A DNA stretch of 64,000 nt from Streptomyces sp. NBC_00654 (GTDB lineage Bacteria > Actinomycetota > Actinomycetes > Streptomycetales > Streptomycetaceae), in contig NZ_JAPEOB010000003.1 in NCBI RefSeq assembly GCF_026341775.1, forward strand, positions 806,001 to 870,000, written 5' to 3'. Numbering within the stretch: position 1 is the stretch's first letter; the number at the start of each line of letters is the position of its first letter. The position numbers and the translations under genes are program-made. Below are positions 30,733-34,743 of this stretch, piece by piece. Under the pieces are notes generated by a model that saw only the letters and a program-made list of their open reading frames with translations, made no database searches and had not been told where the DNA came from.

Positions 30733-32121
30733 TCAGCCGTCGGCGGCGAGCAGCTGGTGCAGATCCACGGCGGACGCCACCCGGACCGCCACGCTCTCCG
30801 CGTACATCGCGTCCGGGCGTTCGAACGCGACACGATTCGCCGCCCGCAGGAACGTCACCACGCCCAGGGTCCGCCCCCGGCTCCGGAGCACCGTGCACAG
30901 GGCGTGCGCCGCGTCCCGGGGCCACTGCCGCTCCACCGCCCACGCCCCGCCCGCCGCATCCGCACCCGCGCTCGTCCGTACCGTGCCGACGCGGTCCACC
31001 GCCTGGAGGGCCGGGTGGCCGGGACCGTAGCGCGCCGGGGCGGCGCCCCCCGACACCGGCAGGCACGGGCCCGGCGCGTCGGCGGGTGTCGCGGCCGTCC
31101 GCACCAGCCGCTCCCCCGCCAGCAGGTCGACCAGCACATGGTCGGCGAACCCGGCGAGGGCGAAGTCCAGCGAGGATGTCGCGGCCTCCATCGGGTCCTC
31201 GCACTCGGAGGCCGCCCGCGCGGCCCGGTGGAGCTGGTTGGCCCGGAAGCGCACCCGGTCCGCGTCCTGCTCGGCCAGCTTCGCCCGGGTCACGTCCTGG
31301 AACAGCCAGCCCACCCCCAGCGGCACCGGCTCCTCGGTCAGCGGTGAGGCCAGCCGCACGAACCCGCTGCGCCAGCAGCGCCGCCGGTCCCCCTCCGCCG
31401 CCCGCAGGGTCACCCAGGTCTCGGTGGGGACGGCGGGCGCCCCCTCGGCGAGCACATGCTGCAACGCGCCCTCCAGATCCTCGACGCCCTGGACGACGAG
31501 GTCGCCCAGCGGCCGCCCCAGCAGGGTCGTACGGCCGCCGCCCAGCGCGCGTGCCGCGTAGGAGTTGAGGACGGTGGGCCGCAGATCCACATCGACCAGG
31601 ACCACACCCCAGGACGCGTCCTGGAACAGCGCCTCGCTGAGTGCGATCGACCGCTCCAGGTCTATCTGGGCGTGGACCTCGCTGAACGCGCAGTACACCC
31701 CGGCCGGTTTCCCGTCCGCGCCGCGCACCCCGGCCGACTGGGTCCGTACGAGCACCCGGCCGCCGTCCTTGCGCAGCAGCGCGAATTCGTGCACCAGACG
31801 CCCCGGCGCGGACATGGCGGCCATCAGCCGCTCCCGTACCTCGTCCGCGTCGGCCCGGCGCACGGCCCAGCCCGCGAATCCGGTCCGGCCCACCGCCTCG
31901 TCGGCGGACCAGCCGAGAATCCGCTCGGCCTCACGGTTCCAGTGGGTGATCGTGCCGCCCGCGTCGAACGCGCACAGGGCGGCGTCCATCCCGTCGAGCA
32001 GCGCGGCGAGCAGTTCGGACCCGGGGACCGTGGCGCCGTCCGGGGCCGCCGGGGCCGCGCTCACGGGGTCCTCCTCCGGCCCGAGAGCGTCGGTGGTCCC
32101 ACTGCTCCTGGAAGCACTCAC
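30733..32121 (-). CDS. PAS-domain signalling protein with GAF-like C-terminus
   Basis: A 462-residue cytosolic sensor, read from the GTG at 32119-32121, which has a perfect GGGAGG 6 nt upstream. A first PAS domain covers about residues 35-140 (TITHWNREAERILGWSADEA, then HEFALLRKDGGRVLVRTQS), and a second about 150-270 (VLVDVDLRPTVLNSYAARAL, DVTRAKLAEQDADR). The last 190 residues resemble a GAF domain (LDFALAGFADHVLVDLLAGE). Unlike many Streptomyces relatives it has no PP2C phosphatase or kinase output at the C-terminus, so the output mechanism is unclear. It faces the candidate small RNA at 32453. Confidence 0.85.
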   Translation of the reverse strand: MSASRSSGTTDALGPEEDPVSAAPAAPDGATVPGSELLAALLDGMDAALCAFDAGGTITHWNREAERILGWSADEAVGRTGFAGWAVRRADADEVRERLMAAMSAPGRLVHEFALLRKDGGRVLVRTQSAGVRGADGKPAGVYCAFSEVHAQIDLERSIALSEALFQDASWGVVLVDVDLRPTVLNSYAARALGGGRTTLLGRPLGDLVVQGVEDLEGALQHVLAEGAPAVPTETWVTLRAAEGDRRRCWRSGFVRLASPLTEEPVPLGVGWLFQDVTRAKLAEQDADRVRFRANQLHRAARAASECEDPMEAATSSLDFALAGFADHVLVDLLAGERLVRTAATPADAPGPCLPVSGGAAPARYGPGHPALQAVDRVGTVRTSAGADAAGGAWAVERQWPRDAAHALCTVLRSRGRTLGVVTFLRAANRVAFERPDAMYAESVAVRVASAVDLHQLLAADG

Positions 32122-32417
32122 TCCGTACCTCCCGCAGGACGTGTCGGCCCTGGGGCCGCTCGTGTGGATCAGGCCGGGCCGGCGTGCCGCGCCCGGCTCC
32201 CCGATCCTGCCCGATCCCGGCGGAAGACCCTGGCCGCGCGTGGTGCCGCACGCATTACCGCACGTCACACCATTCAACTCGAACGTGACCCGGAGCACAG
32301 CCACTTCACCGAAATCCGGCCGACCCCTTCGGCTCCTCCCGGCGTCGGCGGGAGTTCACCTCCGAGCGCGACGGGGCCTCGGTGCCGAACCCGCCCCTGG
32401 GCCCTGGATTAAATAGG
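32122..32417. other. intergenic region upstream of the PAS gene
   Basis: This 296-bp region contains the PAS gene promoter on the minus strand and ends at the promoter of the small RNA on the plus strand. The right part, around 32370-32420, is less GC-rich. No gene is seen. Confidence 0.45.
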
Positions 32418-32447
32418 TTGAGGCTCCCGGGCGGGGTTTCCTAGGCT
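32418..32447 (+). promoter_or_regulatory. promoter of the candidate small RNA
   Basis: TTGAGG (32418-32423) and TAGGCT (32442-32447) are separated by 18 bp, a good match to the principal Streptomyces sigma factor. Transcription is predicted near 32453-32455. Confidence 0.65.
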
Positions 32448-32478
32448 GAAGGCACACAAGAGAGGAGGTGTTCCGGAA

Positions 32479-32517
32479 GTGATTTATCTTCGGACTCGTG
32501 AGGTGGCTGCGGGCTGA
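32479..32517 (+). CDS. 12-residue peptide ORF in the small RNA
   Basis: The GTG at 32479 follows AGGAGG (32463-32468) with 10 nt spacing and encodes MIYLRTREVAAG before TGA. The ribosome-binding site is far stronger than average and begins only about 10 nt after the predicted transcript start, so the ORF is likely translated. Its composition does not suggest amino-acid-attenuation runs, apart from two Arg codons. It overlaps, in another frame, a longer GTG frame at 32498 that I reject. Confidence 0.5.
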   Translation: MIYLRTREVAAG

Positions 32518-32577
32518 CGCCCGTTGTCGCGCTCTTGCAGTGCCGGCCGGTCATCGGCCAATCCCAAGCAGTCACCG

Positions 32578-32648
32578 ACCCGCAGGCTCGCCGGTAAGTC
32601 CGGCCGGCCCCTCCGCAAGGAGGGACCAGAGCCTGCGGGTTTCTGCGT
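32578..32648 (+). terminator. three-way-junction terminator of the small RNA
   Basis: A 12-bp closing stem with two internal hairpins, followed by TTTCTGCG. Because the stem is symmetrical it may also end pdxH transcription arriving from the right, whose stop codon is at 32726. Confidence 0.65.
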
Positions 32649-32725
32649 GTCCGGGCCGCACGCGTGCGCGCGCCCGGACACGTACGCGCGCACGCCCCGT
32701 GTCCGGAGCCGTACGCGCGCACGCC

Positions 32726-33448
32726 CTACGGGCAGAGCCGCTCCACCCGCCAGCCCGCGTCCCCGCGCACGTACCGCAGCCGGTCGTGCAGCCGGTTCTC
32801 ATGCCCCTGCCAGAACTCGATCGTGTCCGGGACGACCCGGAAGCCGCCCCAGTGCGGCGGGGCCGGGACCTTCTCGCCCTCCGGGTAGCGGGCGGCCAGG
32901 TCCTCGTAACGCGTGAGGAGCTCCTGACGGGAGCCGATGACCGTGGACTGGGCACTGGCCCACGCGCCCAGCTGGGAGCCGTGCGGGCGGGTACGGAAGT
33001 AGGCGACGGTCTCCTCGCGGGAGACCCGGACCGCGCTGCCGGTGACGATGACCTGGCGGGCCAGCGGGTGCCAGGGGAAGAGCAGCGAGGCATACGGATT
33101 CGCGGTCAGCTCGCGGCCCTTGCGGGACTCGTAGTTCGTGAAGAAGACGAAGCCGCGGGCGTCGTAGTGCTTCAGCAGCACCGTGCGCGAGGACGGGCGG
33201 CCCTCAGGCGTGGCGGTGGAGACCACCATGGCGTTCGGCTCGTGGAGCACGCCGCCCGCCGCGACCTGGCGGAACCAGCGGGCGAACTGGTCCATCGGAT
33301 CGGGGCTGAGGTCCTGCTCGGCGAACTCCTGCGAACGGTACTGCTCGCGCATCGCCGCCGGATCAGTGGTGCAATCGGAATTGGGGGAAGGAACGGAGGC
33401 AGGAGCGGAGGAGGCAGCGGAGGGGGCCTTGTCGTCTCGTGTGGGCAC
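32726..33448 (-). CDS. pdxH: pyridoxamine 5'-phosphate oxidase
   Basis: A 240-residue FMN enzyme that oxidises pyridoxamine or pyridoxine 5'-phosphate to pyridoxal 5'-phosphate. The FMN-binding segment reads [20 protein letters not shown] and [19 protein letters not shown]. The substrate and C-terminal motifs are [12 protein letters not shown] and the final RVERLCP (RLxP type), with [13 protein letters not shown] before it. The GTG at 33446-33448 has AGGA 7 nt upstream. The first 35 residues are a variable Ser/Ala/Pro-rich extension compared with E. coli PdxH. It diverges from the citrate synthase gene; its 3' end faces the small RNA. Confidence 0.96.
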
Positions 33449-33633
33449 GGGGTCATCCTGCCGCAGCGGGCAAGTGTGCCCGGCGAGGAGGGGTGGTAAT
33501 CGCTCACCGTCGAAATGGGGCCCTGTGCCGGATGTCACGCTTCCCCGGGTCATCGGAACCCGCCAATATCTTGGGGCAGGCCCTTGTGGCCTTCGTACAG
33601 CCACCACCCGCGCCGAACTGAGGGAGCCGTCTG

Positions 33634-34743
33634 ATGTCCGACTTCGTACCGGGACTAGAGGGAGTCGTCGCCTTCGAGACGGAGATCGCCGAACCCGACA
33701 AGGAAGGCGGCTCGCTCCGCTACCGCGGGGTCGACATCGAGGACCTCGTCGGCCAGGTGTCCTTCGGCAACGTCTGGGGCCTGCTGGTGGACGGGGCGTT
33801 CAACCCCGGTCTGCCGCCCGCCGAACCGTTCCCGATCCCGATCCACTCCGGTGACATCCGGGTCGACGTGCAGTCCGCGCTGGCGATGCTCGCCCCCGTG
33901 TGGGGCCTGAAACCGCTGCTGGACATCGACGAGGCGACCGCCCGCGACGATCTGGCACGGGCCGCCGTGATGGCCCTGTCGTACGTCGCGCAGTCGGCGC
34001 GCGGCCAGGGGCTGCCGATGGTGCCGCAGAACGAGATCGACAAGGCCCGGTCCGTGGTGGAGCGGTTCATGATCCGCTGGCGCGGGGAGCCGGACCCCCA
34101 GCACGTCAAGGCCGTCGACGCGTACTGGACCTCGGCCGCTGAGCACGGCATGAACGCCTCCACGTTCACCGCCCGGGTCATCGCCTCGACGGGCGCCGAT
34201 GTGGCGGCCGCGCTGTCCGGCGCGGTGGGCGCGATGTCGGGCCCGCTGCACGGCGGCGCGCCGTCCCGGGTCCTCGGCATGATCGAGGAGATCGAGCGCA
34301 CCGGCGACGCGACGGCATACGTGAAGAAGGCCCTGGACCGGGGCGAGCGCCTGATGGGCTTCGGTCACCGGGTGTACCGGGCCGAGGACCCCCGGGCCCG
34401 CGTCCTGCGCCGTACGGCCAGGGAGCTGGCCGCGCCGCGCTTCGAGGTGGCGGAGGCGCTGGAGAAGGCCGCGCTGGAGGAGCTGCACGCACGGCGCCCC
34501 GACCGGGTGCTGGCGACGAACGTGGAGTTCTGGGCGGCCATCGTGCTGGACTTCGCGGAGGTCCCGGCGCACATGTTCACGTCGATGTTCACCTGTGCCC
34601 GTACGGCGGGCTGGTCGGCGCACATCCTGGAGCAGAAGCGCACGGGCCGCCTGGTGCGCCCCTCGGCGACGTACGTCGGTCCCGGGACGCGGAACCCGGC
34701 CGAGATCGCGGGCTTCGACCAGCTGGCGGCCCTGGGGAACTGA
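33634..34743 (+). CDS. citA: citrate synthase (actinobacterial CitA type)
   Basis: A 369-residue citrate synthase, condensing oxaloacetate with acetyl-CoA. Catalytic and binding histidines appear in AEHGMNAST (H171), GPLHGGAPS (H206) and GFGHRVY (H245). At the position of the catalytic Asp of E. coli GltA (NVDF) this protein has Glu, E298 in TNVEFW. This variant may be characteristic of the subgroup, and it could also signal 2-methylcitrate synthase or altered activity. GAGGGAG precedes the ATG. The gene is divergent from pdxH. Length is typical of the short Gram-positive type. Confidence 0.93.

Follow-up and report, generated by a model that had tools for sequence, protein, structure and literature searches.

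Within the window, the whole 64,000-nucleotide stretch of Streptomyces sp. NBC_00654 DNA analyzed here, the plus strand from 32454 to 32648 carries an RNA gene of the Rfam family RF02471 (Ms_IGR-5), recognized as a full-length covariance-model match (95.6 bits against a gathering cutoff of 45; model positions 1 to 184 of 184) with its 5' end inferred at 32454. This was the only Rfam match at gathering score in the 64-kb window and the one RF02471 match in the genome. Our own model, R1, scored 136.8 bits over 32454-32650, the window sequence itself being part of R1, and the folding energy of 32440-32660 had a z score of -4.0 against dinucleotide shuffles, with 0 of 200 shuffles as low. An earlier reading made from the letters alone (the sequence-only reading) had proposed a search of known RNA families, and this search now gives the element the family name that reading had missed. 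The anatomy it described is present on the plus strand: a promoter (TTGAGG-18-TAGGCT), a strong ribosome-binding site (GGAGGTG, 32464-32470) followed by a 12-codon open reading frame (GTG...TGA, 32479-32517), and a terminator-like domain (32578-32640) in which a 12-bp closing stem (32578-32589/32629-32640) encloses two inner hairpins, one of them with a GCAA loop at 32615-32618. The pdxH gene is convergent to the RNA, as had also been claimed. Between the RNA terminator and the pdxH 3' end lies a 17-base direct repeat, CGTACGCGCGCACGCCC, at 32681-32697 and 32710-32726, the second copy of which reaches the end of the pdxH ORF.

The promoter combines a -35-like TTGAGG (32418-32423) with a -10-like TAGGCT (32442-32447) at an 18-nucleotide spacing; upstream, at 32408-32415, is an A/T-rich patch (attaaata) where related loci carry an A-rich patch. 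These features recur in a set of 110 related loci, which joins the 30 best matches of the order draw to 60 others drawn from the order and the class and to 20 of the 25 matches found outside the class. In 99 of the 110, a TANNNT box lies between -16 and -4 relative to the inferred start of transcription, against about 6 expected from shuffles; positions -36 to -34 are T, T, and G in 66%, 55%, and 45%, and positions -45 to -41 are A in 46 to 76%. The bases before the transcript start are G rich, with G at -2 in 79% of the 110 loci; together with the A-rich patch, they resemble the pattern of strong, growth-regulated promoters. A scan of 31500-33800 for the strict sigma-70 consensus returned no promoter, and no U-tract terminator was found there.

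RF02471 is widespread in the phylum. At an E value of 0.001 or below, matches were found in 117 of 119 genomes of the order (117 above the Rfam cutoff), in 192 of 295 genomes of the class (191 above it), and in 41 of 197 genomes of a phylum-wide draw (21 above it). Of the 20 loci taken from outside the class, 15 score below the Rfam cutoff yet carry the same conserved blocks. One genome of the order holds a second, weak match of 27.6 bits, below the cutoff (G021:C377:10470-10603). An exact-pattern search, in which GAGGTG and TAG were fixed and the start codon was not, returned at least 80 loci (77 distinct), with Mycobacterium, Nocardia, Rhodococcus, Amycolatopsis, Nocardioides, Cellulomonas, Frankia, Actinomadura, Micromonospora, Geodermatophilus, and Acidimicrobiia among the matches listed; the same pattern had 0 matches in viral contigs. 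In mycobacteria, the RNA locus presumably lies between the homologs of Rv0812 and Rv0813c, a placement that combines the neighbors found (Aminotran_4 upstream and a convergent THAP4 heme-binding protein) with the M. tuberculosis gene numbering.

Transcription of family members has been reported before: Ms_IGR-5 was validated by RNA-Seq in S. lividans as SLIV_16488 (PMC8079986), S. avermitilis has two sRNA units that match Rfam, Ms_IGR-5 being one of them (PMC8780764), and in M. smegmatis the RNA is overlapped by ncMSMEG15794c (PMC10454040). Homologs of MS_IGR-5 carry ribosome reads in both M. abscessus and M. smegmatis, according to authors who cautioned that such footprints can also fall on classical noncoding RNA (PMC4974804). 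The passages of these four papers available to us give no function, ORF, or structure for Ms_IGR-5, and a search of mainly openly accessible literature found nothing on its function, translation, or pseudoknot beyond that footprint remark. Of two papers on M. tuberculosis small proteins, one mentions, in the part available, only Rv0813c, with a predicted uORF in its 5' untranslated region that apparently lies, as far as the passage tells, on the other side of Rv0813c than the RNA locus (PMC11133741); the main text of the other, as available, contains no mention of Rv0812, sRNA, or small RNA (PMC9094748). The RNA gene itself is therefore already known, as an uncharacterized actinobacterial small RNA; on comparative grounds, it is one whose core holds a deeply conserved 12-codon ORF, and its translated, pseudoknotted anatomy is the new part.

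The genes around the RNA differ from family to family and include pdxH/citrate synthase, a THAP4 heme-binding protein, a His_Phos phosphatase, an NlpC/P60 protein, and DNA ligase. By mechanical ORF selection and clustering, the nearest downstream gene was convergent in 46 of 81 contexts, codirectional in 19, and of undetermined orientation in 16. A succession of Shine-Dalgarno sequence, short ORF, and terminator is the anatomy of a leader, and the element might act as a leader or attenuator of, or as an antisense element to, a neighboring gene, here pdxH. Since the neighbors differ and are mostly not codirectional, such a cis-acting role has at best a very slight chance of being right. The suggestion of an antisense or terminator element for pdxH fares no better, a pdxH-like gene being close by in only 11 of the 81 contexts, window included, a count that may miss distant relatives. 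The companion suggestion of an independent small RNA agrees with both the sRNA family and the changing surroundings.

The window ORF (GTG ATT TAT CTT CGG ACT CGT GAG GTG GCT GCG GGC TGA) starts at 32479 and stops at 32515-32517. To compare it with related loci, we anchored the frame on GAGGTG (codons Glu-Val; 32500-32505 in the window), which is complementary to 16S CACCTC. Among 97 distinct sequences from Shine-Dalgarno region to stop, the stop is at the same codon in 96 (TAG in 82, TGA in 10, and TAA in 4), and an ATG, TTG, or GTG stands in frame no more than 13 nucleotides after the Shine-Dalgarno sequence in 88, whereas the other two frames have such a codon in 31 and 11; the gaps found between Shine-Dalgarno sequence and start range from 7 to 11 nucleotides. 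The remaining nine ORFs have CTG, ATT, ATC, or ACG at the expected place. The sample from named genera (at least 80 loci, 77 distinct), which came from a different collection, gave the same picture, with 73 in-frame starts against 19 and 8 in the other frames. ORFs with regular starts (n = 88) have 12 codons in 76 cases, 13 in 4, and 14 in 7. The single 17-codon ORF belongs to L043, the only one of the 110 loci with TGG at the position of the conserved stop, where an in-frame TGA follows five codons on.

The near-constant ORF length is kept despite a distance from Shine-Dalgarno sequence to GAGGTG that ranges from 34 to 45 nucleotides, and in five loci with an extra base between a conserved GGAC and GAGGTG the start is shifted and the frame to the stop retained. 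In most of the loci measured (155 of 168), the first base of GGAC is at +14 of the ORF; +14 is approximately the leading edge of an initiating ribosome. At the other end, GAGGTG lies 9 nucleotides before the stop in 96 of the 97 distinct sequences and ends 6 nucleotides before the last sense codon. As judged by comparison of loci, the ORF is conserved as an ORF, in its start, frame, and stop, across the phylum.

The amino acid sequence, by the same comparison, is not what is conserved; the pattern is the reverse of peptide selection. We counted residues in 169 distinct ORFs of 190 loci. The codon containing the GG of GGAC is AGG, CGG, TGG, or GGG (R, W, or G) in 158 of them, the codon preceding GAG varies among R, C, L, S, G, E, P, and H, and the last codon is NGC (R, S, G, or C) in 165, with R, S, G, C, A, and H found there overall. 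In the NGG codon and the last codon, the third base is nearly fixed and the first base drifts. Thr is present in 155 of the 169 and Glu-Val in all, a figure that has to be read with GAGGTG being the anchor of the count and fixed by the search pattern for the 80 named loci; in the 110 loci, which were not chosen for it, GAGGTG is nevertheless found in 110. These are the residues that could speak, along with the conserved ORF itself, for a dual-function RNA with a functional 12-residue peptide. The Thr and Glu-Val codons, however, lie in GGAC, GAGGUG, and helix P2 (described below), where they are constrained as RNA, and changes in codon 7, from R to E in L021 and from R to L in L097, accompany changes at the RNA 5' end. 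Residues thus drift outside the RNA-constrained bases, as judged from these codon counts, and a conserved arrest peptide, as expected of an arrest-peptide regulator, is absent. A functional peptide is very unlikely, because the amino acid sequence is not what is conserved. The idea of a dual-function mRNA therefore stands only in part: a start, frame, and stop conserved across the phylum agree with it, and the drifting residues do not. SgrS/SgrT and SR1, both named in PMC11133741, are likewise stand-alone sRNAs with a translated small ORF, and such dual-function sRNAs share with RF02471 an ORF that can be translated and whose start, frame, and stop are kept; the differences are that residues here are not conserved and that the ORF strand here forms helices of the RNA core.

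Comparison of the related loci indicates that the strand of codons 5 to 11 is the center of that core: it pairs with the 5' end of the RNA (P0) and with the strand adjacent to the terminator (P2), and a third helix (PK) probably joins it to a loop in the terminator domain. None of these three helices is in the Rfam structure line as we read it, and all three show compensatory changes. Covariation upheld the closing stem described by the sequence-only reading, and the comparison brought out further helices involving the ORF, P0 and P2 among them, that this reading had overlooked.

P0 joins the RNA 5' end (C2-A6; 32455-32459) to codons 6 to 8 (32496-32500), with one A-C mismatch in the window copy. 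Across 190 loci, its positions 2 to 7 are paired in 187, 186, 186, 157, 73, and 172 of 188, and position 3 alone occurs as AU (143), GC (27), CG (11), and UA (3); the fifth pair is weak (unpaired in 44 of 68). Counted by itself, P0 shows double changes in 41 cells; shuffled alignments gave 10.6 (0 of 500 as high) and slid controls 0 to 11. P2 pairs the last ORF codons, GGUGRCUGN (GGUGGCUGC in the window, 32502-32510), with the strand directly 5' of the terminator (GCAGUCACC, 32568-32576). In P2, 96.2% of cells are paired, double changes occur in five of nine pairs, and the helix by itself has 42 double-change cells, compared with 9.7 in shuffled alignments (0 of 500 as high) and 2 to 9 in slid controls. 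It is complete, with 9 of 9 pairs, in 73 of 106 loci (4 loci without a recognizable stem were left out); swapping partners between loci lowered the pair sum from 796 to at most 759 (300 shuffles, 95 loci). P2 also appears in the unconstrained minimum-energy fold of 11 of 13 loci, window included, and is absent from that of L004 and L098. Directly before the P2 3' strand is a conserved RAAUNCC (32560-32567 in the window), which is unpaired in the folds and for which no partner was found; nor was one found for the A of GAGGUG, invariant in alignment A1.

The pseudoknot PK, which is less certain than P0 and P2, would pair CGGACU (32491-32496) with AGUCCG (32597-32602) in the apical loop of the first inner hairpin. 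In the related loci this is GGACN with a GUCC-containing apical loop of the terminator domain, the GUCC being nearly invariant in alignment A1; 85% of cells are paired and 45 have double changes, whereas shuffles gave 21.1 and slid controls no more than 9, and covariation is 0.186 against 0.061 shuffled. The pair beside the core occurs as GC (20), UA (14), AU (6), and CG (6), the core pair is GC in 66 and CG in 2, and the sixth, outer pair does not form in 39 of 68. Across families, Watson-Crick pairing at the wobble position was seen in 49 of 86, with 23.1 expected from permutation (0 of 2,000 as high); when permutation was confined within families, the mean was 43.6 and 50 of 2,000 permutations were as high. 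The base preceding GGAC gave no clear signal (30 of 86; 292 of 2,000 within families). Inside families, PK is therefore only moderately supported by covariation.

We also considered other partners for these strands. GGAC can alternatively pair with 32472-32474 (P1, GGUCC with GGAC), where 94.9% of cells are paired with no double change; in L091 and L092, which carry the core double change of PK, GGAC changes together with the terminator loop, and GGUCC does not follow. These two loci are from genomes of one family and possibly represent one event. P1 was rejected as the main partner of GGAC, and we keep it as an alternative partner only. The stem drawn by Rfam between the Shine-Dalgarno region and the last ORF codons pairs in 90.2% of cells, against 90.3% in shuffles, with 0 double changes in 68 sequences; it may still form, though covariation does not support it. 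Masking of the Shine-Dalgarno region by the 3' tail, an idea taken from single-sequence folds, was rejected, the duplex being no stronger than with shuffled tails (over 85 loci, the mean duplex energy was -9.55 kcal/mol with the real tail, -10.12 with shuffled tails, and between -9.36 and -9.70 with segments taken further downstream). The terminator stem, on which Rfam and we agree, covaries in 10 of the 11 closing-stem pairs counted and carries 145 of the 253 double-change cells of the combined structure (P0, P1, P2, P3, and P3a; 85.2% paired cells; 89.5 double-change cells in shuffles). The alignment columns of inner hairpin P3a are poor (43.5% paired), and we claim no covariation there. Once P0 and PK have formed, the loop that is left measures 31 to 40 nucleotides, 32 to 34 in 86 of 98 loci, and holds the Shine-Dalgarno sequence and the start codon. 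If this arrangement of P0 and P2 in place of the Rfam stem is right, it would correct the Rfam structure.

The Shine-Dalgarno region itself is extended, at 32459-32474 in the window, where it pairs with the 16S rRNA 3' tail at 15 of 16 positions, with a longest run of 12 and one U-U mismatch. With the last 16 nucleotides of 16S rRNA, G-U allowed, all 16 positions pair in 90 of the 110 loci; 19 loci have 15 pairs and a single locus has 14, with the 16S tail of Streptomyces sp. NBC_00654 used throughout. Such a near-complete complement might serve to hold or test-load 30S subunits, with a micro-ORF that merely lets captured ribosomes leave. The conserved promoter fits a capturing RNA of this kind, as does GAGGTG, a second anti-Shine-Dalgarno complement, which would lie 6 nucleotides upstream of the codon held in the P site when a ribosome terminates. 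In the NBC_00654 genome, a 14-mer of the region occurs only at the six 16S genes, on the complement strand, and at the RNA locus. Its rarity means little by itself, however, because controls are as frequent: the backwards control also occurs once in that genome, and a 13-mer occurs 1 to 10 times in each of 14 other genomes, in total less often than its backwards control. We consider ribosome capture rather unlikely, and the same holds for its further implication that the RNA titrates, parks, or checks ribosomes.

The reading we prefer, with a probability of about 0.5, is that RF02471 is a stand-alone actinobacterial RNA gene acting as a ribosome-gated RNA switch. A fold made of ORF codons and the conserved translatability of the same codons cannot both be realized at once on one molecule. 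The Shine-Dalgarno sequence and start codon remain in the loop of the folded core, and the very long Shine-Dalgarno region would recruit 30S subunits to it; a translating ribosome would have to pull the core apart, and on reaching the stop codon would cover the P2 5' strand. Two states might thus alternate, one folded and untranslated and the other opened and translated, the latter with a free 3' strand, AAUCCCAAGCAGUCACC. The state of the RNA would report the availability or activity of ribosomes, its output may be the freed 3' part or a changed stability of the RNA, and the peptide would be a by-product of an RNA that works by being translated.

An ordinary trans-acting antisense sRNA, binding mRNAs through its conserved 3' strand or its loops and having a translatable start only by chance and an ORF of little importance, would agree with the Rfam class (sRNA), with the stand-alone gene, and with the AAUNCC stretch conserved before P2. 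Against it stand the phylum-wide conservation of start, frame, and stop, in which one stop codon replaces another, and the compensated one-base shift between GGAC and GAGGTG. The stop interchange and the compensated shift are hard to explain without translation, and we regard a purely antisense role as distinctly improbable.

Known systems share parts of the ribosome-gated switch proposed here. In leader-peptide attenuators, and likewise in uORF leaders, the fold that the RNA adopts depends on whether a short ORF is translated, as we propose for RF02471, and the pairing of an ORF strand with a downstream strand, typical of attenuators, is found here in P2, although we infer the exclusion itself. 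RF02471 differs from them in having no fixed downstream gene and a terminator that ends the RNA instead of being a competing fold. The 6C RNA and the Ms1/6S-like RNA of mycobacteria are stand-alone actinobacterial sRNAs like RF02471; the window's only Rfam match at gathering score, in contrast, is RF02471. With the Rfam entry, our description shares the full-length match and the terminator stem and differs in P0, P2, and the pseudoknot, in the stem between Shine-Dalgarno region and last ORF codons that Rfam has instead, and in the filing of the family as an sRNA.

What these results point to is a signature of obligatory translation without selection on the peptide in a widely kept RNA filed as an sRNA. 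We suggest, tentatively and as the less probable outcome, that RF02471 might be the founding member of a new class of RNAs, acting as a ribosome sensor that stands alone and reads free or working ribosomes by being translated. Its design, equally tentative, would be a pseudoknotted core made of a micro-ORF whose peptide is irrelevant, joined to a maximal anti-Shine-Dalgarno binding site. If true, a ribosome sensor would be near universal in the order and widespread in the phylum, and Streptomyces and its relatives would possess an RNA dedicated to linking the state of their ribosomes with regulation.
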